NCBI GenBank assembly: GCA_017550655.1 | Contig: JAFZOK010000017.1 | Span: forward strand, 1 to 64,000 | DNA length: 64,000 nt | Reading direction: 5' to 3' | Source of the DNA: Bacteroidales bacterium | Lineage (GTDB): Bacteria; Bacteroidota; Bacteroidia; Bacteroidales; UBA932 | Translations under genes and position numbers: made by a program | Notes under the pieces: generated by a model | Told to the model about the DNA's origin: nothing | Seen by the model: the letters and a program-made list of their open reading frames with translations, nothing else | Databases searched by the model: none | Shown here: positions 25,748 to 63,010 of the stretch, one piece after another | How positions within the stretch are numbered: the first letter of the stretch is position 1 | Layout of the letters: each line of letters starts with the position of its first letter

Positions 25748-27736
25748 ATGGCAGGATTTTTCAGAAAACTGCGCAAGGGACTCCTGTGGGCATTGACAAT
25801 TGTCTTTGTCCTGACAGTTCTTTTGCTGGCTTTCAGCGGAACCATTGCGCGCCACTACATACAAAAGCACGGAAACGAGTTGATAGGCAGGGAGGTTTCT
25901 ATCGGAAGCCTCAGCATAAACCCCCTGACTGCCGGAATGAGAGTCAAAAACCTCCATATTCTGGAAAAAGACGGCAAGGAGGACTTTCTCTCCCTTTCTT
26001 CCCTGGAAGGGAACATAAGGCTGAAGCCTATAGCAAGCAGGATTCTCAACATCAAGGGTATCAGCATAGACTCCCTGTATATCAACATTGTGCAGGACGG
26101 GGACAAATTCAATTTCGACGATATAAAGGACAAACTGTACACCTATCTGGAAGAGGACACGGAAGACAGCGGATGGAAGATGGACATAAGAAACATCGCC
26201 CTCACCGGAGGCAAGATCCGCTACCGCGACAAAGCCCTCGGAAGCAAGTTCACACTCAACAGGATAAGCCTGGAAATCCCCAAGATCAACCTCAGCGGAA
26301 AAAATACGGACGTTGGAACCGTGCTATCGTTTGAGGAGGGCGGACAGATGTACTGCCGCATAAGCTACAATCCCGACAGAAGCCGCTTCAAGGTTAACGT
26401 AAGCCTTAAAGACTTTGGCACGGACGGCCTTACTCCATACCTTCAGCAGTTCCTCAATGTCAAGCGCTGCAAGGGAAAGGTATCCGGGCATCTGGAAGTT
26501 CACGGAAAAACCCGGCACATCGCTGATGCAGATGTCAAGGGAAAGTTCATCGCTGAAGACCTGAAGGTGATAGACGAAAGAAGGAAACCAGTTTTCTCTG
26601 CGGAAAGCCTCAAAGCCACAATCTCCAATTTCAATCTCGGGAAAGGAATGGCCCATCTCAACTCCCTGGAAATCACTGGTCCTCAGACTTATTACGAGAT
26701 AATGAAAGACTCCACGGACAACTTCAGCCTGCTGATCAAGGACGAGGAACAGCAGCGGGAAGAAGACTCTCCGCAAATGAAACTCGTAATAGACAGCCTC
26801 TCTGTTAATGATGGGAAAATTGATTTCAAGGACAATACCCTCAAAGAGTCCTTCTCGTACCGCCTCAGCGAAATAAGCCTTGAGTGCAATGATTTCCGCC
26901 TGGACAAGATGAACATCTTCACTGGAAGTGGCGTGGCCGGAAAAGCCGGAAAGGTGGATTTCGAGTGGACAACAGACTTTGTTAAAATGAAAAACGTTTA
27001 TCTGGACATCACGGCATCCAACATAAACGTAAAGGACTTCACTCCTTACGCCAAATACTATGTGGGGAACAGCATAGAGGGAGGAACTCTGCGATGGGAA
27101 AGCCGAAACACAATTATCGGCGGCCATCTGGAGGGCAGCAACCGGATAGAAATCTACAAGCCGAAAGTTAGCCGCCGTTCCAAGTGGACAGAGCCTGTGT
27201 ATGAGGCTCCCGTAAGGCTTGGAGTATATGCCCTTACAAACAAGAAGGGCCTGATGAACATCAGCCTTCCGGTAAAGGGAAATCTGGACAGCCCGGATTT
27301 CTCCTACAGAAAAACAGTCTTCAAGGCTCTGCTCAACGTCTTTACCAAAGTATCCGCAGCCCCTTTGAGAGCCGTTGGAAAAATGCTTGCAAAAGGCGAG
27401 GATCTGGACCGCATAGAAATAGACACGGAGCAGGAAGACTTTTCCACCAGGGAATACGGGAAGCTAGAGCAGATTGTGGAGGCGATGAAGGAAAAGGACG
27501 AGTTCCACTACACTTTCCGACAGAGGTTCAACCTCAGGAAAGCCCTCAGGAAAGAAGAAAAGGAGAAGGTTCTCTCTCTGGCGCAAACCAGAAACGAGAA
27601 CCTCTCCAACTATCTGAAACGTATGGGAATACATTCCAGAAACTATACCGTGGAACCTGTACGGGAAGACTCTCTTGTCTCCTACAGGGGTAAAAACTGC
27701 TTCTTTGTGGATGCCGTCTGGGAAGAGGCTCAGTAG
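25748..27736 (+). CDS. AsmA/DUF748-like inner-membrane-anchored protein
   Basis: This 662-residue protein has one N-terminal transmembrane helix (about 14-32) and a long, beta-strand-rich periplasmic part with repeats of the type IRNIALTGGKIRYRDKALGSKF and IDSLSVNDGKIDFKDNTL, typical of DUF748 and related AsmA-like proteins. These belong to bridge-like lipid-transfer families thought to move phospholipids between membranes (family knowledge; direct function untested). The last 100 residues form an OmpA-unlike basic tail. It converges on the fimbrial operon with a 7-base overlap. Confidence 0.75.
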   Translation: MAGFFRKLRKGLLWALTIVFVLTVLLLAFSGTIARHYIQKHGNELIGREVSIGSLSINPLTAGMRVKNLHILEKDGKEDFLSLSSLEGNIRLKPIASRILNIKGISIDSLYINIVQDGDKFNFDDIKDKLYTYLEEDTEDSGWKMDIRNIALTGGKIRYRDKALGSKFTLNRISLEIPKINLSGKNTDVGTVLSFEEGGQMYCRISYNPDRSRFKVNVSLKDFGTDGLTPYLQQFLNVKRCKGKVSGHLEVHGKTRHIADADVKGKFIAEDLKVIDERRKPVFSAESLKATISNFNLGKGMAHLNSLEITGPQTYYEIMKDSTDNFSLLIKDEEQQREEDSPQMKLVIDSLSVNDGKIDFKDNTLKESFSYRLSEISLECNDFRLDKMNIFTGSGVAGKAGKVDFEWTTDFVKMKNVYLDITASNINVKDFTPYAKYYVGNSIEGGTLRWESRNTIIGGHLEGSNRIEIYKPKVSRRSKWTEPVYEAPVRLGVYALTNKKGLMNISLPVKGNLDSPDFSYRKTVFKALLNVFTKVSAAPLRAVGKMLAKGEDLDRIEIDTEQEDFSTREYGKLEQIVEAMKEKDEFHYTFRQRFNLRKALRKEEKEKVLSLAQTRNENLSNYLKRMGIHSRNYTVEPVREDSLVSYRGKNCFFVDAVWEEAQ

Positions 27737-28536
27737 TTTATGTTAACCGGAGGCACATTCTCAAACGGCTGAGTTCCTATCACTGCTTTCAGCTTGGCCA
27801 CATCTATCGTTATGTAAATGTCCTTGATAATATCAGAAACAAGGTCATAATTGTTCTGTTCAAGATACTCGCCAAGCTCAAAGTCAGAACTGACAGTCTG
27901 GTTTCCGGCCCTGAAACAGGAAACCTCCAGTTTTATACCCTCCAGATTTCCCGGACGCGTCATCCTCAAATGAAGTGGAGATGTACCGTCCGCCTTGGAT
28001 ACAGTCTGCTGCGGCAGCGGCGCTCCGTCCAGGCAGAATCCCCCGTACTGGCTAATGAGTTCTACCTGAGCCGTTTCGTCCGCTTTAAGTCCGGTGAAGG
28101 TTATGAAGACGTCTATGAACATCTTTCTCGGCTGGACCCTGACCAAAGCGGAATCCCTGTACAATTCCACCTCTTTGGCATATCCGAACAACGGATCCAC
28201 TTCCTTTGACGCAGCCTTGTACAGTTTCCCCGACAGGGTGTTGATGTCTGCGGTTATGGTTCCATCGCCCAGATTGGCCCACACAAAGCATCTGTAGTTT
28301 CCGCTCTGGACCTCAAAAATCTGTCTCTTGTAGAACTCATGCTCGGTGATGCGGGTTCTGCACATCAGGCCTTCCTGTGGCCCGAATATCCAGATATCCG
28401 CATATAAAGCCTTGCCTTCCAGAAGACTGCAGTCAACTGCCAATATCCTTGGGCAAGCCTCCCTGTCTTCCCAGATATCGCATCCCGAGAAGACAAGAGG
28501 CATCGCCGAGAATAATATCAACAAGATTTTCCTCAT
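27730..28536 (-). CDS. FimB/Mfa2-family fimbrial anchor lipoprotein
   Basis: This 268-residue lipoprotein has the lipobox FSGC (C19). Its sequence fits the FimB/Mfa2 family: the CPRILAVDCSL start, the LYADIWIFGP strand, GNYRCFVWANLGDG and PRKMFIDVFITFTG. In Porphyromonas gingivalis, Mfa2/FimB caps and anchors type V fimbriae to the outer membrane and limits their length. It follows the structural subunit with a TGATG overlap, and is the last gene of the operon driven from 32052-32143. Confidence 0.87.
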   Translation of the reverse strand: MRKILLILFSAMPLVFSGCDIWEDREACPRILAVDCSLLEGKALYADIWIFGPQEGLMCRTRITEHEFYKRQIFEVQSGNYRCFVWANLGDGTITADINTLSGKLYKAASKEVDPLFGYAKEVELYRDSALVRVQPRKMFIDVFITFTGLKADETAQVELISQYGGFCLDGAPLPQQTVSKADGTSPLHLRMTRPGNLEGIKLEVSCFRAGNQTVSSDFELGEYLEQNNYDLVSDIIKDIYITIDVAKLKAVIGTQPFENVPPVNINY

Positions 28537-29594
28537 CAGAAACTAACAGAATAATTCGGGCTGGTAGCCATATTTTCCACAGAAGCGTTCAGCGTTACAG
28601 TCTTGAGTGTAATCTTGCTTTCAGGATCATCCGAACCCGGGCCGGTAATGGTAAAGGTGTAGGTATAGCAGGTATTTCTCTTTACTCCCTTGTGCCCTAC
28701 GGAAGAAGTCCATCCGTATCCCGGCTGATTGATATCCACCGGATAATAATAAACAGTTCCATCCAGTTCAGCCTCAAGGACAAGACGGGTAAACCTGTCG
28801 GTATCGGTCTCCGTATCCATCAGGTTCTCATAGCAGTAGAAATGATGGACGGTGGTATAGCCATCATCTCCCACAAGGCCTGGAACTCCCTCGGCAAACA
28901 TGGCGGTCATCAGGCAGCCAGAATAATCTTCTTGAGAATATCCTTTGGAATTCAGGATAACCTTTGTGGAAGGATCCTCACCCATATAGGTCTTGGCTCC
29001 GGCAATGTTGGTTAGATACAGTTTTACATATTTGAGTTTCATTCCCTCGTAAGGAGTGCCGGCAAAATCAGTCTTGATGCCCTTCACTACAACCTTGGCT
29101 ACAAGTCTTTTGAGCACAATGTTTACAACCTGGTCGTTCTGAACGTTTACAGTAACCTTGCCTGTCATGGTGAAATAAGGCAGATATTCTTTCTGCAGGG
29201 ATACCACGAGATTGAGGAAGTTCTCCTCCCTTACCACTCCGGCCCAGGAAGTCTCCTTAGAGTTTGCCACAACATAGATTGTCTTGTTTCCTACTGTGGC
29301 GTCAACAGGAAGATTGGACAGGTTCATTCCACTTGTGGAGTTAATGCTGAAATGCTTATAGGCATCCAGAGCGCCTCCTTCCCTGAAGACAAAAACATCA
29401 ACGACACTCACAGAATCCAGATACTTTTTCTCTCCGTGTCTCGGATCTGTATTCTTGGTAACGATTTCATAAGGAGAAACATTCAGGTGAATAGTTGCCT
29501 TCTCCTGTGATTCAGCGCTTTTTGCAGCCTCATCCTTGCTGCAAGCGGCTACGGCCAATGCCATCAGAGCCGCACAAAACAGTTTTTTAATCAT
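28536..29594 (-). CDS. FimA/Mfa1-like major fimbrial subunit, lipoprotein precursor
   Basis: This 352-residue protein has a type II signal peptide with lipobox VAAC (C18). It shows the type V pilin pattern: VVDVFVFREGGALDAYKHF, TIYVVANS, and the core strand VLKRLVAKVVVKGIKT. Type V pilins are exported as lipoproteins, then trimmed at an Arg/Lys site and assembled by strand exchange (known for P. gingivalis). It lies between the DUF3868-like gene and the Mfa2-like anchor. Confidence 0.87.
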   Translation of the reverse strand: MIKKLFCAALMALAVAACSKDEAAKSAESQEKATIHLNVSPYEIVTKNTDPRHGEKKYLDSVSVVDVFVFREGGALDAYKHFSINSTSGMNLSNLPVDATVGNKTIYVVANSKETSWAGVVREENFLNLVVSLQKEYLPYFTMTGKVTVNVQNDQVVNIVLKRLVAKVVVKGIKTDFAGTPYEGMKLKYVKLYLTNIAGAKTYMGEDPSTKVILNSKGYSQEDYSGCLMTAMFAEGVPGLVGDDGYTTVHHFYCYENLMDTETDTDRFTRLVLEAELDGTVYYYPVDINQPGYGWTSSVGHKGVKRNTCYTYTFTITGPGSDDPESKITLKTVTLNASVENMATSPNYSVSF

Positions 29595-29620: not shown

Positions 29621-31450
29621 TCAATTCACTTGTTCCATAAGCCTTTCCATTTCAGGATCCAGGGAAGAGCGGAACCTGAGGCGAGGGTTTTCCCCGATTG
29701 CGGCCCGATAATGTGCCATTGCCTTTTTATCCTCTCCCATCCTGCTGTAAACCAGGGCCATCAGATAATTTGTCCTGGCGTTTTTCTCCAGTTCCTGAAG
29801 GACACTCAGCGCAGATGCGTTGTAATCCAGGCAGAGGTATGCTATAGCGGTGTTTATATCCGCATACGGACGCAGCAGGGCAACCGCTTTCTTGAAATCC
29901 CTGTCAAGAAGAGCCTTGATTCCTTCCCTGTAAGTCTCGTCCCTCACTATCTCAGTGGAGACTGTGTCGTATATTCTGCGATGGAGCCGGAATGTAAAGT
30001 CAATTCTTCTCAGCAGAGGATACAGCCTCTCCCTTATGTACTTGAAATCAGCGCATTTGGAAAGAAGTCCCTCCCTTTTGTCCGGATCGATCTCCCTAAA
30101 GACGGCAAGAGCGGCTTCCCTGTCCCCGATGTTGCTGTCGGAAACTATATGCTCTTTCAGCAAGTCCCAGTTTTCCGGAATATGCTCCGTATGCATCCTA
30201 ATTTTCTTCCCTATCGCAGAGGAAAAATATTCCATAACAGATTCCGCCCTTTTGTGAGACAGAGTCTGGTTTACCGTGTAACTTCCGTCAGGAGAACAGG
30301 ATGCGCAGATGATTACAGAGTCTGCGGTAAATCTTTGGCTTACCGCCAGGGAATCGAATTCCCTGCGTATGCGGTTCAACTCACTTGCATTGTTTCCGAG
30401 GGCCGTGTCTATCTCCCAGCTTCCCTTTTCAAATTCTATAAACGCCATCGTGCTGGCTTCCACGTCCCTGGCCATGGTATGCCTGCGGTATACCGCAGAG
30501 GTGTCTGCCATCTGGGTAAGGGAACTTACGTACCATGTAAGCGTGTCCGGAGCGGTAAAACGGTAGAGAGTGTTCCCGTAAGTATGCACGCTCCCCAGAA
30601 AGCACATCTTCAGACGGCGCATGTCCCTTGTTGCCGGAAGATCCTGCACATACCTGTAAACCAGCCCTCCGGAAAGATCGCGGAGAACAGTGTCCAGCCT
30701 TATTCCCAGGCGGTCTATCGGATCCTTCACGCACTTTCGGAACACCTCTTCCAGCCTGTCTTTCCTCTTGCGGTTCAGCTTTACCAGATAGTGCTTTATA
30801 TAATAGTCTATGGCTTCCTGTTCCGTTACCCCGAACTCTCCCAGAGCCCTGTCTTCCAGATTCCTCCGTGTAAAGTACTTGAGCAGGCCCAGATACCCGA
30901 ACGCCTTCAGGAAATCCACGGAATCCGGGATTATGGACGCAAAATATTTGTTGTACCTACCATAACCCTTCAGTTGCTCTGCCCTGTAACCTTCTCCCGT
31001 TACAAATATCCTGTCCAGCAGCACTGTATCCCCGTCTTTCATCAGCTTTGGCACTATCCTCAGCTGCCTGTCCCCGGCAAGAAGTTCAGGGCTTACTTTC
31101 ATATCGAAACTTAACCTTATCTTTCCTCCCCTCTCGGCGATGTTGCGGTGGAGTGCGGTTACCGTTAGAGGCGAGAGCTTGCCCTGGGCCATAATTTCCC
31201 CTCCCGATTCAGTAACCTCGGCATTCAGTACAAGCTCTTCTTCCTCTTCGGAAACGGTTGCGAGTCTCTCCCTGTTTCCTTCCGTAAGAGACATATCCAC
31301 ATTCCCCGGGGCATCAGCGATGGTTACCCTCAGGCAATTCTGGTTGTCCCCTCTTAGACCGCTGCGGCATTCCACGCACACACACACTGTCAAAAGCCCC
31401 AAGACAGCGGCCCCCGCAAACCGTATTACAACACTAACCTTATTATTCAT
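29621..31450 (-). CDS. DUF3868/OmpA-like fimbria-associated protein with TPR-like tail
   Basis: This 609-residue protein starts at 31450 (MNNKVSVVIRFAG), five bases after the upstream gene's stop; the longer in-frame start would overlap that gene. A hydrophobic N-terminal segment of about 20 residues is present. The middle contains an OmpA-like stretch (ICASCSPDGS then LSHKRAESVMEYF), and the C-terminus has TPR-like helices (YLMALVYSRMGEDKKAMAHY). DUF3868 proteins sit next to DUF3575 and FimB/Mfa2 genes in Bacteroides fimbrial loci. A role in anchoring or assembly at the outer membrane is inferred. Confidence 0.7.
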   Translation of the reverse strand: MNNKVSVVIRFAGAAVLGLLTVCVCVECRSGLRGDNQNCLRVTIADAPGNVDMSLTEGNRERLATVSEEEEELVLNAEVTESGGEIMAQGKLSPLTVTALHRNIAERGGKIRLSFDMKVSPELLAGDRQLRIVPKLMKDGDTVLLDRIFVTGEGYRAEQLKGYGRYNKYFASIIPDSVDFLKAFGYLGLLKYFTRRNLEDRALGEFGVTEQEAIDYYIKHYLVKLNRKRKDRLEEVFRKCVKDPIDRLGIRLDTVLRDLSGGLVYRYVQDLPATRDMRRLKMCFLGSVHTYGNTLYRFTAPDTLTWYVSSLTQMADTSAVYRRHTMARDVEASTMAFIEFEKGSWEIDTALGNNASELNRIRREFDSLAVSQRFTADSVIICASCSPDGSYTVNQTLSHKRAESVMEYFSSAIGKKIRMHTEHIPENWDLLKEHIVSDSNIGDREAALAVFREIDPDKREGLLSKCADFKYIRERLYPLLRRIDFTFRLHRRIYDTVSTEIVRDETYREGIKALLDRDFKKAVALLRPYADINTAIAYLCLDYNASALSVLQELEKNARTNYLMALVYSRMGEDKKAMAHYRAAIGENPRLRFRSSLDPEMERLMEQVN

Positions 31451-31455
31451 AACTG

Positions 31456-32028
31456 TCAGAACACAAACGAGATACCTAAAAGCAGACCTGCCGGCGCCAC
31501 CACAAACTTCTCCTTCTTGCCCTCGTTGTGTCCACACTTGGGACAGGAGTATCTGGTATAATTTGTCATCCCGGCAAAGCCTCCCATTCCCATCTCCAGG
31601 TTAATCCCCTTGTCCAGCATCAGGGCATAGCCTCCGCCCATCTTCAGGCCGTAGGCATAGCCCTCGTAGGCCTTATGGGTAAAGATTCCTCCACAGGCAT
31701 ATTTTGCCCAGGCAGCATAGCTGTAGAGATACCAGCCGGAGTTCACAAACCACGGCCAGTACCTGGCTCCGAAAGACAGCTCCACGCGGCGGAAATACTT
31801 TTGCTTTTCCCCGCTTCCGAATGTAAATGGATTGTATGCGGCTCCGGCCCTAAGACTTGTGTGCCTGGAAACAGGCATCGAGCCCTGGACATTTATTGTG
31901 CCCAGAGCCAGCCAGTCCGCCGCATTTGTAGAAATTGAATAGTTCTGTCCGCTAAGACGGGTTGAACCGGCCAGAATAACCGCCGCCAACCCAACCCAAA
32001 TCCGGACCTTTTTTGATATGCGCTTCAT
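31456..32028 (-). CDS. DUF3575 outer-membrane beta-barrel protein of the fimbrial locus
   Basis: This 190-residue protein has a signal peptide (cleavage near SGQNYS) and a run of alternating aromatic strands ending in ISFVF, as in small outer-membrane barrels. NAADWLALGTINVQGSMPVSRHTSL and FSFGARYWPWF-type segments are the DUF3575 hallmark. CPKCGHNEGKK near residue 163 is odd for a barrel and may be a loop metal site. It is the first gene of the fimbrial operon, 24 bases downstream of the composite promoter's -7 box. Confidence 0.78.
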   Translation of the reverse strand: MKRISKKVRIWVGLAAVILAGSTRLSGQNYSISTNAADWLALGTINVQGSMPVSRHTSLRAGAAYNPFTFGSGEKQKYFRRVELSFGARYWPWFVNSGWYLYSYAAWAKYACGGIFTHKAYEGYAYGLKMGGGYALMLDKGINLEMGMGGFAGMTNYTRYSCPKCGHNEGKKEKFVVAPAGLLLGISFVF

Positions 32029-32051: not shown

Positions 32052-32143
32052 CAAAAGTATGAGCGCGTCAACCCTCTACCAAACCAAACGGTAAAATTTA
32101 CCCACCCCGACGAAAAGTTTTTACTTTTATCAAAAACGTAAAC
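32052..32143 (-). promoter_or_regulatory. Composite promoter module, copy 1 (fimbrial operon)
   Basis: Read on minus: half-site GTTTACG (32143-32137), then the region where a right arm would fall, a 21-bp gap, then the 25-bp block at 32103-32079 that begins with GGGTAAATTTTACC and ends with GTTTGGTTTGG, a 20-bp spacer, and -7 box TACTTTTG (32059-32052). The second TTTG of the block is the -33 element. The DUF3575 ATG follows at 32028. The same block and spacing recur at 57515-57607 and 62261-62355. In this copy only one arm of the upstream TTTACG site is preserved. Confidence 0.85.
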
Positions 32144-57514: not shown

Positions 57515-57607
57515 GTTGACGTTTTGCGTAAACTACAAAATCTTCATATGAGGCGGGTAAATTTTACCGTTTGGTTTGGAAACGAGGGAGATGGGGCGGT
57601 AGATTTG
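57515..57607 (+). promoter_or_regulatory. Composite promoter module, copy 2
   Basis: Left arm GTTGACG (57515-57521), TTTTG spacer, right arm CGTAAAC (57527-57533), a 21-bp gap, the 25-bp block at 57555-57579 (GGGTAAATTTTACC then GTTTGGTTTGG), a 21-bp spacer and -7 box TAGATTTG (57600-57607). The block is identical to copies 1 and 3. Transcription would start near 57614, upstream of a 27-codon ORF and the HicB-like gene. Confidence 0.85.
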
Positions 57608-57636
57608 CGGAAGTGAATCATAAACCACTAATTTTC

Positions 57637-57720
57637 ATGGAGAATCTGAATAAGAAGGAAGATTTTGAATTATCTCAAAAATGTGTTAGTTTTGCATTGT
57701 CAAACTTAATGGCGGGATAA
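57637..57720 (+). CDS. Possible 27-residue small ORF
   Basis: ATG 57637 to TAA 57720 encodes a peptide beginning MENLNKKEDFELSQK. It is the first ORF after the composite promoter, 23 bases from the expected start. A second promoter (57664-57694) lies within it, so the ORF may be accidental. No homology is recognised. Confidence 0.25.
   Translation: MENLNKKEDFELSQKCVSFALSNLMAG
57664..57694 (+). promoter_or_regulatory. Second promoter of the HicB-like gene
   Basis: TTTG (57664-57667), 19-bp spacer, TAGTTTTG (57687-57694): an exact consensus promoter with a leader of about 65 nt to the HicB-like ATG at 57767. The gene thus has a regulated-looking distal promoter and a plain proximal one. Confidence 0.7.
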
Positions 57721-57766
57721 GGAAAGGATTGTTGGCGAAACTTAAGAAACAAATAGGATTCTGAAT

Positions 57767-58171
57767 ATGAAAATGCAGGTTATTATAGAAAAGGATGAGA
57801 GAGGGTATTCCGTTTATAGTGATGGTCTTAAAAGCGGTATTATTATCGGGGACGGCAAAAGTGTGGCAGAGGCCAAGGAAGACTTTATGAATACGCTGGA
57901 AGAGGTCAGAAGTACCTATCCTGCAAGAGGAATGGAGATTCCGGAAGAACTTGTGGATCCTGAATTTGAATTCAAGTATGACGTGGCGTCTGTCTTTGAT
58001 GAACTGGACTTTATAAACCTAACCAAGTTCGCTGAGTTGTCAGGATTTAATTCTTCTTTGCTAAGACACTACAAAAGAGGCGACTTTGCCATATCTGGCA
58101 AGCAGGCTTTCAAGATAGAGAAGGCATTGCATGATATCGGCAAACGTCTGGTTGCGATATCAGTGTTCTGA
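57767..58171 (+). CDS. HicB-family antitoxin-like regulator, orphan
   Basis: This 134-residue protein has a HicB-type partial RNase H fold at the N-terminus (MQVIIEKDERGYSVYSDG, then a DGKSVAEAKEDFMNTLEE helix) and a C-terminal helix-turn-helix (about 85-130; KFAELSGFNSSLLRHYKRG). HicB antitoxins normally pair with a HicA toxin; none is adjacent here, and solitary versions are common in Bacteroidota. It might act as a DNA-binding regulator. Confidence 0.75.
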   Translation: MKMQVIIEKDERGYSVYSDGLKSGIIIGDGKSVAEAKEDFMNTLEEVRSTYPARGMEIPEELVDPEFEFKYDVASVFDELDFINLTKFAELSGFNSSLLRHYKRGDFAISGKQAFKIEKALHDIGKRLVAISVF

Positions 58172-58190
58172 TACAATCGCTGAGAAATAG

Positions 58191-58198
58191 TATATTTG
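58191..58198 (+). promoter_or_regulatory. -7 box before the N-formylglutamate-amidohydrolase-like gene
   Basis: TATATTTG matches TAnnTTTG and would give a leader of about 90 nt. No good -33 box. The -7 box runs straight into the 19-bp repeat at 58198-58216. Confidence 0.45.
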
Positions 58199-58216
58199 CA
58201 GTGCATCAAGAGTACT
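58198..58216 (+). repeat. 19-bp direct repeat, left copy
   Basis: GCAGTGCATCAAGAGTACT; matches 61151-61169 with one mismatch (T to C at position 5). The two copies bracket about 2.9 kb with the amidohydrolase-like, RelB/PIN, HigA-fragment and 271-residue genes. Confidence 0.6.
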
Positions 58217-58294
58217 TGAGTGTACACCAACCGAGTTTAAGTTATGCCACGGTGGTAAGATGATGCGGGTTTGTCAGAACTAAAACAATAGCTT

Positions 58295-59008
58295 ATGAGA
58301 TACGGAAGAATAGTATTGAACGAGCCTCACGCGTCTGTGGAGGGCTTGTATGACAGCAGGTTAAGTTTCTGGAACATTGACGAGGGGTTTGTGAACGGGG
58401 CCGTGATGGACCTTACGGATTGGCACACGGATTTCCTGTTTCACGGCCTTAGGGACAGTAGGATTGAGACGGTAAGGTTCCCCTATTCCAGGTTTGTGGT
58501 GGATGCGGAACGGCTGTGGAACGATCCTCTGGAAAACAAGGGGCAGGGAATTCTGTACAGGAAGTACGGAGAGTATTGCCGTAAGATTCCCGTTGCTGAG
58601 GAAGGGAAGCTGCTGGGGCTGTGGCACTGGCATCAGAGGAGGTTGAAAAGGGCTCTGGAAAGTTCTGCTTCCACATTGCTGCTGGACTGCCACTCGTTTC
58701 CGGAGAGGATGAGCGATGTGGATGTCTGCATAGGGTTCAACGAAGACTGGTCAAAGCCAGAGAAGGAGACTCTTGAATTTGCAGTGAATTTCTTCGAGGA
58801 GAACGGCTATGCAGTGGGTATCAACAATCCATACAGCAACTCCATTGCACCGCAGTGCAATGTGCCTTACAAATCGATGATGCTTGAAATCAACAAAAAG
58901 GCATATCTGAAAGGGAATACATTGCAACTTAGCACAAGGACCGGACGGCTTGGCCGGAACATGAGCCAGGTTGTATCATCCTTTATGTCTCTTCTCCTAA
59001 GTTCTTAA
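58295..59008 (+). CDS. N-formylglutamate amidohydrolase-like protein
   Basis: This 237-residue protein fits the FGase family: early zinc-ligand-like context (HASVEGLYDSRLSFW), LLLDCHSFP with the conserved D-x-H-S, and the C-terminal MMLEINKKAYL. Family members hydrolyse N-formylglutamate in histidine degradation, but no hut gene is near, so the substrate may differ. It is the first gene in the segment bracketed by 19-bp repeats. Confidence 0.75.
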   Translation: MRYGRIVLNEPHASVEGLYDSRLSFWNIDEGFVNGAVMDLTDWHTDFLFHGLRDSRIETVRFPYSRFVVDAERLWNDPLENKGQGILYRKYGEYCRKIPVAEEGKLLGLWHWHQRRLKRALESSASTLLLDCHSFPERMSDVDVCIGFNEDWSKPEKETLEFAVNFFEENGYAVGINNPYSNSIAPQCNVPYKSMMLEINKKAYLKGNTLQLSTRTGRLGRNMSQVVSSFMSLLLSS

Positions 59009-59062
59009 CCTTTTGAATTTAAGCAGAATCGCTGACTGAAGAGATGTAGCTGATAAAAATAT

Positions 59063-59091
59063 TTGGTTGCTTTTGGTTGCGATATGGTTGC
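59063..59091 (+). promoter_or_regulatory. Three phased TGGTTGC repeats upstream of the toxin-antitoxin operon
   Basis: TTGGTTGC at 59063-59070 and 59073-59080, then ATGGTTGC at 59084-59091: spacings of 10 and 11 bp place the sites on one face of the helix. The third overlaps the -33 region of the promoter. This is the arrangement expected for autorepression by a ribbon-helix-helix antitoxin, here RelB-like. Confidence 0.6.
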
Positions 59092-59117
59092 AATTAGGTT
59101 TTAATTTCCTATATTTG
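59087..59117 (+). promoter_or_regulatory. Promoter of the relB-PIN operon
   Basis: GTTG (59087-59090), 19-bp spacer, TATATTTG (59110-59117), followed by a leader of about 20 nt to ATG 59145. It overlaps the last TGGTTGC repeat. Confidence 0.65.
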
Positions 59118-59144
59118 TTCCTGGATAGTTAAAGATACAGGATT

Positions 59145-59462
59145 ATGGCACAGACTGCGTTTACTGTCAGGATGGATGCAGAGACAAAACAAAAGTTTGA
59201 TGAGCTCTGCAAAGACTTTGGAATGAGCGCTAATACAGCATTCAATGTGTTCGCAAGAACCGTTGTAAAGCGAAGGAGGATTCCCTTTGAAGTAGAGTCT
59301 GAAGAGGAGGCTGTGTTGAGAAGAGGAAAAGAAGCTGTTGCTGCAATTAGGGCGAAAGCGGTTCTAAATGGTACGGCTGATATGTCTATGGAGGAAATCG
59401 ATGAAGAAATCCGCCGTTATAGAGAAGAGAAAAAGGCTTCTTCATCAAAGAAGAACGGCTAA
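59145..59462 (+). CDS. RelB/DinJ-family antitoxin
   Basis: This 105-residue antitoxin has an N-terminal ribbon-helix-helix DNA-binding domain (TAFTVRMDAETKQKFDELC, then FGMSANTAFNVFARTVV) and an extended charged C-terminal tail for toxin binding (about 55-98). Residues 74-97 align without gaps to the C-terminal tail of the toxin in the next gene. It starts the operon and likely represses it through the phased repeats upstream. The toxin begins 10 bases after its stop. Confidence 0.88.
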   Translation: MAQTAFTVRMDAETKQKFDELCKDFGMSANTAFNVFARTVVKRRRIPFEVESEEEAVLRRGKEAVAAIRAKAVLNGTADMSMEEIDEEIRRYREEKKASSSKKNG

Positions 59463-59472
59463 TCTTGCAGTT

Positions 59473-60069
59473 ATGAAGTATTACGCCGTTATAGACACTA
59501 ATGTGATAGTGTCCTCTCAATTGAGTTCAAGAGCGGACTCCCCTATTGTTCAGATATGGGATCTTATTATGAACGGAGATATCATTGCTATGTTCAATGA
59601 AGATATTCTTGAAGAATATGAGCAAGTTCTCTTGCGAGACAAGTTTAATATCAACACTCAAAAAGTCCAAGAGATAATTTCTGCCATCAAGGTAAGAGGG
59701 CTCTCATGTGAAAGATGTGACTGTGAACTGGATATTCAAGATGCAGATGACAAAAAGTTTGTGGAAGTAATGCTCTCAAGAGACGACTCATATCTTATAA
59801 CAGGTAATCTTAAGCATTTCCCTTCCAACAGTAGAATCATAAGTCCTGCTGATATGATTATGATTATAAAGGCCAATATTCAGGAGTCTTCACTTTTGAA
59901 TGAACCTGGAAGTGAATATATGTCTGACAAGAAACGCGAAATACTCAATAAAGCCATCGCGGCAACACTTGAAATCCGGCAATCAGCCAAATTGGATGGC
60001 ATTGCTGAAATGGATATAGCTGATATAGACCGCATTATTCGCGAGTATCGGAACGGTAAGAAGAAATAG
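59473..60069 (+). CDS. PIN-domain toxin with appended antitoxin-like tail
   Basis: The 198-residue protein consists of a PIN ribonuclease domain (1-135; acidic residues in VIDTNVI at D8, EEYE near 48-50, and DADDKKF at 90-93), of the COG1569 toxin group, plus an unusual C-terminal extension (about 150-198). The latter ends LDGIAEMDIADIDRIIREYR, 12 of 24 identical to antitoxin residues 74-97. COG1569 toxins usually stop near 140 residues. The start at 59473 fits the PIN domain; the upstream in-frame extension overlaps the antitoxin gene. Confidence 0.82.
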   Translation: MKYYAVIDTNVIVSSQLSSRADSPIVQIWDLIMNGDIIAMFNEDILEEYEQVLLRDKFNINTQKVQEIISAIKVRGLSCERCDCELDIQDADDKKFVEVMLSRDDSYLITGNLKHFPSNSRIISPADMIMIIKANIQESSLLNEPGSEYMSDKKREILNKAIAATLEIRQSAKLDGIAEMDIADIDRIIREYRNGKKK

Positions 60070-60080
60070 TAGGGCAGATT

Positions 60081-60233
60081 ATGAAAGAACACATTAATGA
60101 CAATCAGGTGAGGGATTACGATCTTGTATTAGATGCCGAGTTCGGCATTCCTGGAAGTGAGGAGCGCAAAGAGGCAGAAGAACATGCTAAAGCCTTCTAT
60201 TCTAAAGATAGGCATTTATCCGAAAAATCATAG
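60081..60233 (+). pseudogene. Truncated HigA-type antitoxin fragment
   Basis: ATG 60081 to TAG 60233 encodes 50 residues starting MKEHINDNQVRDYDLVLDAE. It resembles the N-terminal arm that precedes the HTH in Bacteroidota HigA/XRE antitoxins (a YDxxLDxxFGxxGTPER-like arm and a helix ending AFY), but the HTH itself is absent and the last ten residues are unrelated. I take it for a 3'-truncated antitoxin; a real small protein is possible since it follows the PIN gene by 11 bases. Confidence 0.5.
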
Positions 60234-60294
60234 GTTGACATAAATCGTCAATTATCTTCTTCAGCTTTGCAGTCGGAATAAATAAAAGACAGTT

Positions 60295-61110
60295 ATGAAC
60301 TCGCGCGAAGAACAAAAACATTCTTTCATTCTATCTGATGAGATGAAAGACATTTTCAAACAAGTTGCTGAAGAACAGCACAAGACAATTCGATTGTGTA
60401 AGACGATATTGGCGGGATTCAAAGCTTCAAATGAGAAGGACATTAAGTACATGGACAGCTACATGGATCCTTTATGGGACATGATGGAACAAGGAAATGA
60501 TGTTGAGCAACTCTATCGGGAATATCTTGAATATATTGCAACATTCAATCCGGAAGAAAGCCGGAATAGAATTGAAGATTTGGATTATTCTTTAGGTTAC
60601 TGGACTCCTGTTATTTATGCAGCAGCCTATGTGGCTAGAGAACTTCATAGAGGGCATAAAGACAGTGATGGCAGCGATTACTTCAAATCTTGCCTTTTGC
60701 ATGTCGGATCAACCGGAGCTACTTGGAAAGAGCATGTAGCAGGTTTTCTTTATGATACCCCGGCATATACTGGCATGAAAACAGAAATCCTACTTGATCG
60801 TGTTAAAAATCAGTTAATTGTTTTTTCCAACAACAAAGAAAGTTTATTCTCTCTTGTTGATGAATTTGATATTTCTCCTTTCCCCGGAAATTCCGTATTA
60901 TTCCCGTCAGACAATGATTGGAAAGAAATCGCAGATGTCCTTTATATACTTGATCCACAAACGGCGGCCAATCATAAAGATTACATTCAACGGCTCTGTA
61001 GAAGCATTATTGCTCTCAGCGTTAAGTTTAAAACTATGGATAAAGACGCTGATATGGATAACAACGATAAAAGAGTTATCCTTCAGATGCTTAACGAGTA
61101 TTATAACTAA
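60295..61110 (+). CDS. Unknown 271-residue protein
   Basis: A soluble, mostly helical, acidic protein without signal peptide or membrane segments. Notable stretches are HKTIRLCKTILAGFKASNEK, the ESRNRIEDLDYSLGYWTPV segment, and HVGSTGATWKEHVAGFLYDT, but I see no known catalytic motif. It is the last gene before the right 19-bp repeat and is convergent with the AlkZ-like gene. Context (toxin-antitoxin pair, truncated antitoxin) is accessory DNA. Confidence 0.6.
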   Translation: MNSREEQKHSFILSDEMKDIFKQVAEEQHKTIRLCKTILAGFKASNEKDIKYMDSYMDPLWDMMEQGNDVEQLYREYLEYIATFNPEESRNRIEDLDYSLGYWTPVIYAAAYVARELHRGHKDSDGSDYFKSCLLHVGSTGATWKEHVAGFLYDTPAYTGMKTEILLDRVKNQLIVFSNNKESLFSLVDEFDISPFPGNSVLFPSDNDWKEIADVLYILDPQTAANHKDYIQRLCRSIIALSVKFKTMDKDADMDNNDKRVILQMLNEYYN

Positions 61111-61150
61111 TTAATCTTCAAGTAATCAAGAGCTGAAAATAACTGTATTA

Positions 61151-61169
61151 GCAGCGCATCAAGAGTACT
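61151..61169 (+). repeat. 19-bp direct repeat, right copy
   Basis: GCAGCGCATCAAGAGTACT; one mismatch to 58198-58216. It lies in the 61-bp convergent intergenic space between the 271-residue gene and the AlkZ-like gene. Confidence 0.6.
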
Positions 61170-61171
61170 CT

Positions 61172-62218
61172 TTAATTTTCCTTAAATCGGATATAAGCCT
61201 GCCAGGCTTGCTGGAGGGCCATATTGTCGATGTTGGTGATGGGGTGGAAAAAATCGGATTGATTTCCGGGTTTAAAAGGTTGCCAGTTGCCGCAGATGAT
61301 ACCGTCGCAAGCTATGATTGGCTGGAAGATGCCGCTGTTGTTGTGTGCTTTATGGCGGTATTCCTGAGACAGGACGATATCTCGGCTCTTGTAGCCTATA
61401 AGGTATTCGTCGTAAGGAGGTATCAGAAGGTATCTGCCTTTGCGGAAGCCTCTTGTGTGGCAGTCATCGGTGAGATAGAAATCACGGCCATTAAAATGCT
61501 CTTTGTGTAGGGTGTCTTTCAGGAGCTCTATTCCCCTTCTGCAATCGCTGACACCAAGGCCGGACCACCAGACAAAGTCCTCTAGAGTGGCAGGCTGACG
61601 GCTCTGGAAGTATTTGCGGGTAAAATGTTTAAGGGCTTCGTCTCTGTCTGTCTTTTGGGGTTTGTGCTTTATTTTGTCCTCAGCGATGGCATATGTGGCT
61701 TTCAAGGGGAGAAGATCTCCGCTGCATAGAGTTCCGGAGAATTCTGCCATACGGATGTGGTACGAAAGCCGGTGGTCATCCATAGTTAAATCCTTCTCTT
61801 TCAAGGCTTGCTTGAAATCTTCCTTGGTTGCGCTGCCTTTCTCCGAAGTTGTTCTTGTGAGAATATCCCTGATCTTGATTAGTTCATTGTCCGGGATGTT
61901 GATTTTGTTGCTTTTCATCCATCCCACGGTAGTTGCAATGGCCTTGGGTGCGCACAAATCCAGCATCCACCAGTAGTCTTCTGCTGATACAAGTTGCCAG
62001 GTTCCACGCATAAGGTGCAGTCGGACAATCTTTCCAGTATCAAATGCCTCCTTGAAAGCCTTGGCTGATGGCTTCTTTGTACGCATAGCCACAGCCCATC
62101 TCATCATACGGTATTCCTGTGCCTGGATGGCGCACATGTGGCTGACAACCTCAGCCGGATCGGCAAACTGGGGAGCGGCAAGTTGCTGATTAAGAAGGCG
62201 GATGGCAACAGGGTTCAT
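61172..62218 (-). CDS. Winged-helix HTH_42 protein, AlkZ/AlkX-type DNA glycosylase-like
   Basis: This 348-residue protein belongs to the winged-helix family that includes AlkZ and YcaQ (AlkX), glycosylases for bulky alkyl lesions and interstrand crosslinks. The catalytic Q-x-Q is present as Q32-A-Q34 (IQAQEYRMMRWA), with RLHLMRGTWQLV and TLEDFVWWSGLG typical of the tandem winged helices. The Q-x-Q form matches the AlkZ group rather than the Q-x-D of AlkX. Self-protection against a DNA-damaging natural product or general repair are both possible. Confidence 0.82.
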   Translation of the reverse strand: MNPVAIRLLNQQLAAPQFADPAEVVSHMCAIQAQEYRMMRWAVAMRTKKPSAKAFKEAFDTGKIVRLHLMRGTWQLVSAEDYWWMLDLCAPKAIATTVGWMKSNKINIPDNELIKIRDILTRTTSEKGSATKEDFKQALKEKDLTMDDHRLSYHIRMAEFSGTLCSGDLLPLKATYAIAEDKIKHKPQKTDRDEALKHFTRKYFQSRQPATLEDFVWWSGLGVSDCRRGIELLKDTLHKEHFNGRDFYLTDDCHTRGFRKGRYLLIPPYDEYLIGYKSRDIVLSQEYRHKAHNNSGIFQPIIACDGIICGNWQPFKPGNQSDFFHPITNIDNMALQQAWQAYIRFKEN

Positions 62219-62260
62219 ATCACTATTTTCTGTTCAAAATTACGAAAAATGCAGTGATTG

Positions 62261-62355
62261 TAGTTTACGTTTTGCGTAAACTACAAATCTTTCAATTCGG
62301 TCGGGTAAATTTTACCGTTTGGTTTGGAAACAAGTGGGAGGTGACTGTAGATTTG
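62261..62355 (+). promoter_or_regulatory. Composite promoter module, copy 3
   Basis: Perfect inverted repeat TAGTTTACG (62261-62269), TTTTG, CGTAAACTA (62275-62283), then from CGTAAAC a 21-bp gap, the 25-bp block at 62303-62327 (GGGTAAATTTTACC then GTTTGGTTTGG), 21-bp spacer, -7 box TAGATTTG (62348-62355). Transcription would begin near 62362, 52 bases before the ATG at 62414. The minus-strand -7 box TAATTTTG (62242-62235) for the AlkZ-like gene lies just outside. Confidence 0.87.
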
Positions 62356-62413: not shown

Positions 62414-63010
62414 ATGTGTAAAAAGACTACTAGCACCATAGCAGAGAAACAATCAAAAGAATTTAATGATGTAATTGAAACTCTTTATACCCAAGGAAAT
62501 GACATTGCGGCTAAAAAGTTTTCCCACATGTATTTTACCATTGCGGTCACGCCAGATAATATGAAAGTCCTTGGCATAGAAGGAGACAGATTTACCATCT
62601 CCTACGGAACAATATCGAGACATTACGATAAAGACACTGCCCACTATCTACCAAAGGATGTCTGGATGAAACTACCTGAAGCCATTGTAAAACCATTTGC
62701 TATCTCAAAGTATTACTCGGATTCCGGTCATTTAAATATGAAGGGCTATAGATTATATACCGTAATACAATATGACGATGGTTATATTGTAGCGGGAGTA
62801 ACAGTTAAAAATGCTGGGCGTAACTTAAAAGTCAATTCCATATCTACCATTTTTGCTAGAGACAAAAATTTATCTGGCAAAGAGGAAGTTATATTCATAG
62901 AAACAAAAATAACTCCTTTGCAGGAAGCACTTCTTAGGAAGCCCAATTCTTCCCAATATCAACCTGAAAAGGAGTTATCTGGAGACAAAGTTAATAGTTC
63001 TTCTAAATAA
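62414..63010 (+). CDS. Standalone protein resembling MuF C-terminal (barnase/ColE5-like) domains
   Basis: This 198-residue protein starts MCKKTTSTIAEKQ. Residues 65-150 follow the pattern of toxin-like domains fused to phage MuF proteins: H-Y-L-P (77-80), LPEAIVKPFAIS (87-98), RLYTVIQYDDGYIVAGV (113-129) and VNSISTIFARD (140-150). Those domains belong to the proposed barnase/EndoU/ColicinE5-like nuclease group; catalytic residues are not certain here. No signal peptide. It is alone behind composite promoter copy 3, the same module that drives the fimbrial operon. Confidence 0.45.
   Translation: MCKKTTSTIAEKQSKEFNDVIETLYTQGNDIAAKKFSHMYFTIAVTPDNMKVLGIEGDRFTISYGTISRHYDKDTAHYLPKDVWMKLPEAIVKPFAISKYYSDSGHLNMKGYRLYTVIQYDDGYIVAGVTVKNAGRNLKVNSISTIFARDKNLSGKEEVIFIETKITPLQEALLRKPNSSQYQPEKELSGDKVNSSSK

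Follow-up and report, generated by a model that had tools for sequence, protein, structure and literature searches.

Three promoter boxes in the window

The window analyzed here is a 64-kb stretch of DNA from a Bacteroidales bacterium (contig JAFZOK010000017.1, positions 1 to 64,000). It contains three identical copies of a 25-bp block, GGGTAAATTTTACCGTTTGGTTTGG, located in front of a fimbrial operon (copy 1), a HicB-like gene (copy 2) and a gene for a MuF C-terminal domain (copy 3). The block belongs to a real and conserved promoter box of the activator type, which most likely defines a competence regulon with accessory effectors. A transcription activator probably binds there and turns on a program of natural competence. 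The elements of the three promoters are:

32079..32103, minus strand: com-type box copy 1, GGGTAAATTTTACCGTTTGGTTTGG
32052..32059, minus strand: -7 box of copy 1, TACTTTTG, at the offset common to the sites
32125..32143, minus strand: upstream A-type dyad of copy 1, degenerate, 3 mismatches
57555..57579, plus strand: com-type box copy 2, GGGTAAATTTTACCGTTTGGTTTGG
57600..57607, plus strand: -7 box of copy 2, TAGATTTG
57515..57533, plus strand: upstream A-type dyad of copy 2, 1 mismatch
62303..62327, plus strand: com-type box copy 3, GGGTAAATTTTACCGTTTGGTTTGG
62348..62355, plus strand: -7 box of copy 3, TAGATTTG
62263..62281, plus strand: upstream A-type dyad of copy 3, perfect

A direct search of the window confirms what the sequence-only reading had described: three identical 25-mers, each followed by a TAnnTTTG -7 box (with spacers from TTTG to TAnnTTTG of 20, 21 and 21 bp for copies 1, 2 and 3), and each preceded, at a distance of exactly 21 bp, by a TTTACG/CGTAAA site. 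This upstream dyad, GTTTACGTTTTNCGTAAAC, has no mismatch in copy 3, one in copy 2 and three in copy 1. A search for it through the whole genome finds four more places with 2–3 mismatches, and a control pattern gives three matches; the dyad of copy 1, taken alone, is therefore no better than chance. The blocks themselves, as had been claimed, are well beyond what chance would give. The 13-bp core, allowing up to one mismatch, is expected 0.07 times in the window and gives six strand-matches, a number reached in none of 100 shuffles. These matches count as three places, because the core is nearly palindromic.

The box in the genome, the genus and the family

The genome that contains the window (G000, 2.26 Mb in 42 contigs, 88% complete) has many more copies than the three. 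The 13-bp core occurs seven times without a mismatch, 11 sites are counted as clear (core and -33 part, up to 2 mismatches), and a profile built from 46 non-redundant sites finds 15 sites at E≤1. The refined box, GTMAATTKTACCGNWTGG, is matched exactly at 12 places. Further copies, for which a genome-wide search had been proposed, are thus present, and the box is also conserved in relatives. Of the 39 genomes covered in the genus, 12 (among them the own genome) contain the pattern TTTTACCGNNTGGTTTGG at 2–11 sites each when at most one mismatch is allowed. These will be referred to as the box genomes (G000, G003, G005, G009, G012, G014, G022, G023, G027, G029, G030 and G036). The other 27 of the 39 have no match to this pattern, and the reversed control has none in any of the 39.

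The profile search of the same 39 genomes gives a match at E≤1 in 32 of them, and a match better than 1e-6 in only 13. The stricter GTMAATTKTACCGNWTGG, searched in 398 genomes of the family, is present in 11 of the 39 genomes of the genus (2–16 sites each) and in 2 of the 359 outside it, with one match each (control, 0/398). Searching named genomes for the GCAT form gives 11 loci, all in Bacteroidales or Bacteroidia drafts, and their sources, where stated, are rumen or omasum. In G007, outside the clade of the box genomes, there are five weak profile matches (E 0.02–0.04, on contigs C16, C24, C26 and C35), three of which share one score. They may be a repeat that carries a drifted box.

Architecture of the box promoters

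For a more detailed description, 132 distinct sites were assembled: 11 from the own genome, 56 from the TTTTACCGNNTGGTTTGG search and 65 among the profile matches listed, so that the set takes in only part of the weaker profile matches. The box genomes contain 123 of these sites. One site, on contig C7 of G027, is probably a chance match within a gene. A comparison of 91 non-redundant sites shows almost no variation at the positions GT-AATT-TACCG--TGG.

A TAnnTTTG element (at least 5/6 matches) is located 36–38 bp downstream of the box in 91 of the 123 sites, compared to 63 of 2460 shuffles of those stretches and 20 of 1320 positions further downstream. The box promoters are of the Bacteroidales housekeeping type, with a TAnnTTTG -7 box at a fixed distance. 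A second, TTTG-like -33 element is present in 89 of the 123 sites, those of the exporter, the fimbriae, the lipoprotein and most toxin-antitoxin genes. In the remaining 34 it is replaced, often by GCATCC, and TTTG therefore does not hold as a constant part of the module. Sites of this second kind include all of those for comF (6), the nuclease (5) and assigned dprA (5), together with five for comM; one comM site has the TTTG. The -7 box is found mostly at an offset of 38 with the TTTG and mostly at 37 without it. As it is in nearly the same place in both sets, the box, rather than the -33 element, sets the geometry, as would be expected of a promoter-proximal activator.

The elements upstream of the box vary, and include the TTTACG (A-type) dyad, another dyad (P) and the motif GGGGGCGGAC; a coarse sorting of these elements by regular expressions leaves 36 of the 132 sites without a class. 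The A-type dyad had been described as a constant part of the module as well, and many sites carry the P dyad or GGGGGCGGAC in its place. The P dyad, GTACRATYNNNNRATYGTAC, is found with up to 2 mismatches upstream in 31 of 122 box promoters (one of the 123 sites is too near a contig end), and in 28 of the 31 its distance to the GT of the box is exactly 3 bp. It is absent from the controls (0/2440 letter shuffles, 0/119 stretches further upstream, 0/610 stretches downstream).

The promoters of unrelated genes differ except for the box, the upstream element and the -7 box. A sigma-54 promoter (TGGCA) was dropped by eye, the TAnnTTTG being constant and the -12 GC not; integron attC sites and invertible promoters were likewise considered by eye and dropped.

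Genes behind the box

Counted by the first recognizable gene (12 of the 132 sites are without an assignment, one of them the own dprA), a C39 exporter is found behind the box in 12 genomes (11 of the 12 box genomes and G028), a DUF4493 lipoprotein in 11 (eight box genomes and G015, G024 and G028), and the DUF3575/FimA fimbrial operon in 10. The gene is comM in seven genomes, including G032 from outside the box genomes, and in three others a DUF1016 gene lies between the box and comM. It is comF in six genomes, a nuclease in five, and dprA in five in addition to the own genome. The DprA (TIGR00732) and ComM/YifB (TIGR00368) matches are over their cut-offs. The ComF match (TIGR00201) is below it, at 73 bits compared to 234, as is the best match of the exporter, TIGR01193. 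Exo_endo_phos_3 is also among the families identified, and a helix-hairpin-helix protein (HHH_3, below cut-off) is located behind the box in two genomes. The accessory members include AbiEi/AbiEii, YoeB, HigB, ORF6N, Y1_Tnp, DUF1016/YhcG, LPD13, MuF_C and RelB/PIN.

Two peptides with GG leaders are encoded in all 12 of the exporter operons inspected, their genes following that of the exporter (for example at L016:5838-6050 and the next small gene, with 11 other loci). One peptide carries (N/S/K)P(D/E)TIRKIAK and the other a GYxIG stretch. The two may serve as a bacteriocin pair or as a pheromone, and the GYxIG stretch resembles what is seen in two-peptide bacteriocins. A conserved basic protein of about 45 residues is encoded roughly 230 bp after the box in six genomes (L105, L117, L118, L126, L130, L141), and one of these proteins has no Pfam match.

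The genes in the window that stand behind or near the boxes are:

31456..32028, minus strand: DUF3575 gene, first of the fimbrial operon (PF12099, E 2.8e-31), a box being found before such a gene in 10 genomes
29621..31450, minus strand: second gene of the same operon, encoding 609 aa, with a weak TPR match under the cut-off
28536..29594, minus strand: FimA-type fimbrillin (PF06321, E 7.4e-10)
27730..28536, minus strand: fourth gene of this operon, without a Pfam match
57767..58171, plus strand: HicB-like gene, no Pfam match
58295..59008, plus strand: N-formylglutamate amidohydrolase-like gene (PF05013)
59145..59462, plus strand: RelB-like antitoxin (RelB/PIN pair), an uncertain member that lacks a separate box within the window
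59473..60069, plus strand: PIN_3 toxin-like gene, membership uncertain
62414..63010, plus strand: MuF C-terminal-domain gene (PF18819, 28.0 bits, cut-off 27.6)

The MuF-like label given earlier survives by a narrow margin, as the score is barely over the Pfam cut-off. The HicB-like label finds no backing in Pfam; similar proteins are located behind the box in G014 and G030, and the gene of G030 adjoins one of HicA size (recognized as HicA by eye only). Co-transcription of the amidohydrolase-like gene from the box of the HicB-like gene is only possible. RelB/PIN pairs stand behind a box in G003 and G014. The sequence-only reading had proposed one regulon for the fimbriae, the HicB-like and the MuF-like gene. 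A regulon with a shared promoter is strongly borne out by the many copies, the orthologous promoters and the fixed -7 distance. The content of the regulon was missed, as its conserved members include dprA, comM, comF, the nuclease and the exporter, and only a minor share of it consists of the fimbriae and the two window genes.

Some features lie beside these genes. A UvrD-type helicase gene immediately precedes box copy 1, and an AlkZ-like DNA glycosylase gene (61172-62218, minus strand) is divergent from box copy 3, with its start about 85 bp away. A 14-base sequence, GCATCAAGAGTACT, is found twice between the accessory genes, at 58203-58216 and 61156-61169.

Conservation at orthologous promoters

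The site is shared before dprA, comM and comF. By eye, the box precedes dprA in nine of the 12 genomes that define the box clade (G000, G003, G009, G012, G014, G022, G023, G027 and G030), with slight changes in G012, G023 and G027. The dprA promoter of G005 has a decayed box, and none is visible in that of G036.

In a wider survey by eye, 30 dprA loci include seven with a box, five with a drifted box (G005, G015, G024, G026 and G028) and 16 with none; G022, where the box is further upstream, and G029, for which a wrong frame was taken, are left out of these classes. The exporter was surveyed at 29 loci, three of which are without a usable frame. Of the other 26, six have the box or a near form, six have a drifted box (G006, G008, G010, G013, G018 and G019) and 14 have none, and some of these exporters are perhaps not orthologous. 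The dprA and exporter loci without a box are all outside the clade of the box genomes, except for those of G036, which is in both lists. By inspection, the regulatory link may be older than the exact sequence of the box.

A candidate regulator

The P dyad is rare. In the own genome, GTACGATTCYRGAATCGTAC with up to 3 mismatches is found at four places only (control pattern, 1), two next to boxes and the other two as a tandem at C15:718018-718061, directly preceding an operon of two AraC-type genes. With up to 2 mismatches, there are five P dyads in 779 kb from parts of three genomes (the own genome around known sites, G012 and G029 by guessed synteny), two beside boxes and three before this operon. 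The sharing of so rare a dyad with the box promoters ties the AraC-type operon to the regulon. The operon is located at:

L045:10153-11258 (G000, contig C15) and L414:13898-15018 (G012, contig C6): two-gene AraC-type operon

The first protein of the pair belongs to the AraC family, with HTH_18 over the cut-off in both genomes, and has a hydrophobic N-terminal stretch that, by eye, resembles a membrane helix. For the second, only local similarity points to an AraC-like protein (41% identity to the first over 29 residues). Between G000 and G012, the first regulator is 48% identical and the second 63%, compared to 94–98% for the nearest neighbors LeuS, YitT and TrkA. The tandem dyads and the -7 box of the promoter, TATTTTTG, are kept in G012. 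The pair was not found in G029 by guessed synteny. The AraC-type proteins would bind the box or the dyad.

A regulator of the LytTR family was considered as well. ACCGTTTGG fits a LytTR consensus, but no second repeat is seen at 21–22 bp. The family is absent from nine of the 12 box genomes (G000, G003, G005, G012, G022, G023, G027, G030 and G036), with one such regulator each in G009, G014 and G029. A LytTR regulator for the boxes is unlikely.

Discussion

The architecture of the promoters suggests how the switch may operate. A protein would bind just upstream of, or over, the -33 position and recruit RNA polymerase to a -7 box of the ordinary Bacteroidales kind. The promoters of comF, dprA, the nuclease and mostly comM, with no TTTG -33 at the usual place, would depend on this activator. 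Those of the effectors (the exporter with its GG-peptides, the fimbriae, the lipoprotein and most toxin-antitoxin pairs) also carry the TTTG, and many promoters have a second dyad in addition. The best candidate for the regulator is the operon of the two AraC-type proteins, with the same second dyad in tandem in its promoter. What is observed is the box, with its spacing, gene set and conservation, and the link of the dyad to the AraC-type operon; binding by the pair, activation and DNA uptake are inferred.

Several observations weigh against this assignment. comEC is present in 38 of the 39 genomes of the genus, but a search of 30 of these 38 loci, 11 of which come from box genomes, found no box. 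The loci reach only 1.5 kb past the domain, and outside the own genome a distant operon promoter could have escaped. The own comEC is more than 30 kb from the nearest own site, and comEC does not seem to be a member of the regulon. About half of the sites serve toxin-antitoxin, defense-like or mobile genes. No box is recognizable by eye at the 16 of 30 dprA and 14 of 26 exporter loci mentioned above, and nearly all of the compared genomes are drafts. With regard to the AraC-type pair, the second protein gives an HTH_18 match under the Pfam cut-off in G012 (E 0.026) and none in the own genome. A box-like remnant in the own promoter of the pair is not kept in G012, the only other genome where the pair was found. 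Moreover, two genes further down are 71% and 88% identical between G000 and G012, and the fast divergence is thus not unique to the pair.

Part of this evidence would also suit a regulon for DNA damage or general stress (SOS-like). The products of dprA, comM, radA and the nucleases serve repair and toxin-antitoxin genes serve stress; many members are indeed toxin-antitoxin or defense-like, which also counts against competence. A RadA-like gene, recognized by eye, follows an AbiE pair behind one box, comEC is seemingly no member, and copies 1 and 3 in the window are located just after a UvrD-type helicase gene and beside an AlkZ-like gene, respectively. We nevertheless consider a stress regulon unlikely. 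The combination of comF, comM and dprA is typical of competence regulons, the first genes include no recA, uvr or repair-polymerase gene by eye (with 12 of 132 sites unassigned), and a repair function does not suit the exporter, the GG-peptides or the fimbriae.

The limited regulon of the sequence-only reading, with one regulator for surface and accessory genes alone, does account for the fimbriae and the accessory members. It is very unlikely, since it leaves the conserved promoters of dprA, comM, comF and the exporter unexplained. These promoters also speak against the block being part of a mobile repeat of the REP or MITE type with a promoter as chance cargo, because in different species the boxes occupy orthologous positions. 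The genes behind the box do include RAYT-type transposases, and the P dyad is similar to REP palindromes; on the other hand, the promoters of unrelated genes differ outside the box, upstream element and -7 box, and the P dyad is rare (four own places with up to 3 mismatches, five in the 779 kb), which makes a mobile repeat extremely improbable. Finally, many sites precede HigBA, HicB, YefM-YoeB or AbiE genes, as they would if the boxes were operators of self-regulating antitoxins. The same box at a single spacing serves antitoxin families that are unrelated to each other as well as non-toxin genes, which renders this explanation scarcely credible. A competence regulon with accessory effectors is the reading that we prefer.

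A more elaborate version of the competence model can be put forward tentatively, and as a whole it is doubtful. A dedicated, fast-evolving and membrane-linked AraC-type pair would read a two-part promoter code; this one switch would turn on DNA processing, the export of two peptides (bacteriocin or pheromone) and the FimA-type fimbriae, which would contribute to DNA capture; and new toxin-antitoxin and defense genes would have been recruited repeatedly on arrival by transformation.

Comparison with known systems

Streptococcal competence is linked with pheromone- and bacteriocin-linked genes. It resembles the present system in that one promoter site serves DNA-processing genes as well as a C39 exporter and GG-leader peptides, one of the peptides having a GYxIG stretch. 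It differs in its regulator and promoters, as the own genome has no LytTR protein and the boxes precede an ordinary -7 box rather than an alternative-sigma promoter.

In the same phylum, and in favor of competence, DprA, ComF, ComEC, RecA and a helix-hairpin-helix protein are described as essential for transformation in the portion consulted of a study on Riemerella anatipestifer (PMC8459023), two of which, DprA and ComF, have their genes behind the box here. This species belongs to the Flavobacteriaceae, and that portion gives no promoter box or regulator. Within the excerpts covered of a mainly open-licence literature, PMC5907639 included, no competence box or regulator for Bacteroidetes and no match to the letters of the box were found. 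The box as defined here, the list of genes behind it and the candidate regulator operon put the control of competence in Bacteroidota within reach of testing. Gene exchange in the rumen may be a switched program that is tied to peptide export and the recruitment of toxin-antitoxin genes.

A close parallel in organization is the CRP-S/Sxy system of Haemophilus influenzae, in which, according to the sections consulted of PMC6957337, the competence promoter also drives a HigB-like toxin-antitoxin operon, a point in favor of competence here. In both cases a shared activator site is located before genes for DNA uptake or recombination and before a HigB-type toxin-antitoxin operon. By appearance, the box here does not resemble the consensus of a CRP site. 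In contrast to the CRP-S/Sxy system, comEC is seemingly outside the regulon described here, which has Bacteroidales -7 promoters and includes a peptide exporter and FimA-type fimbriae.

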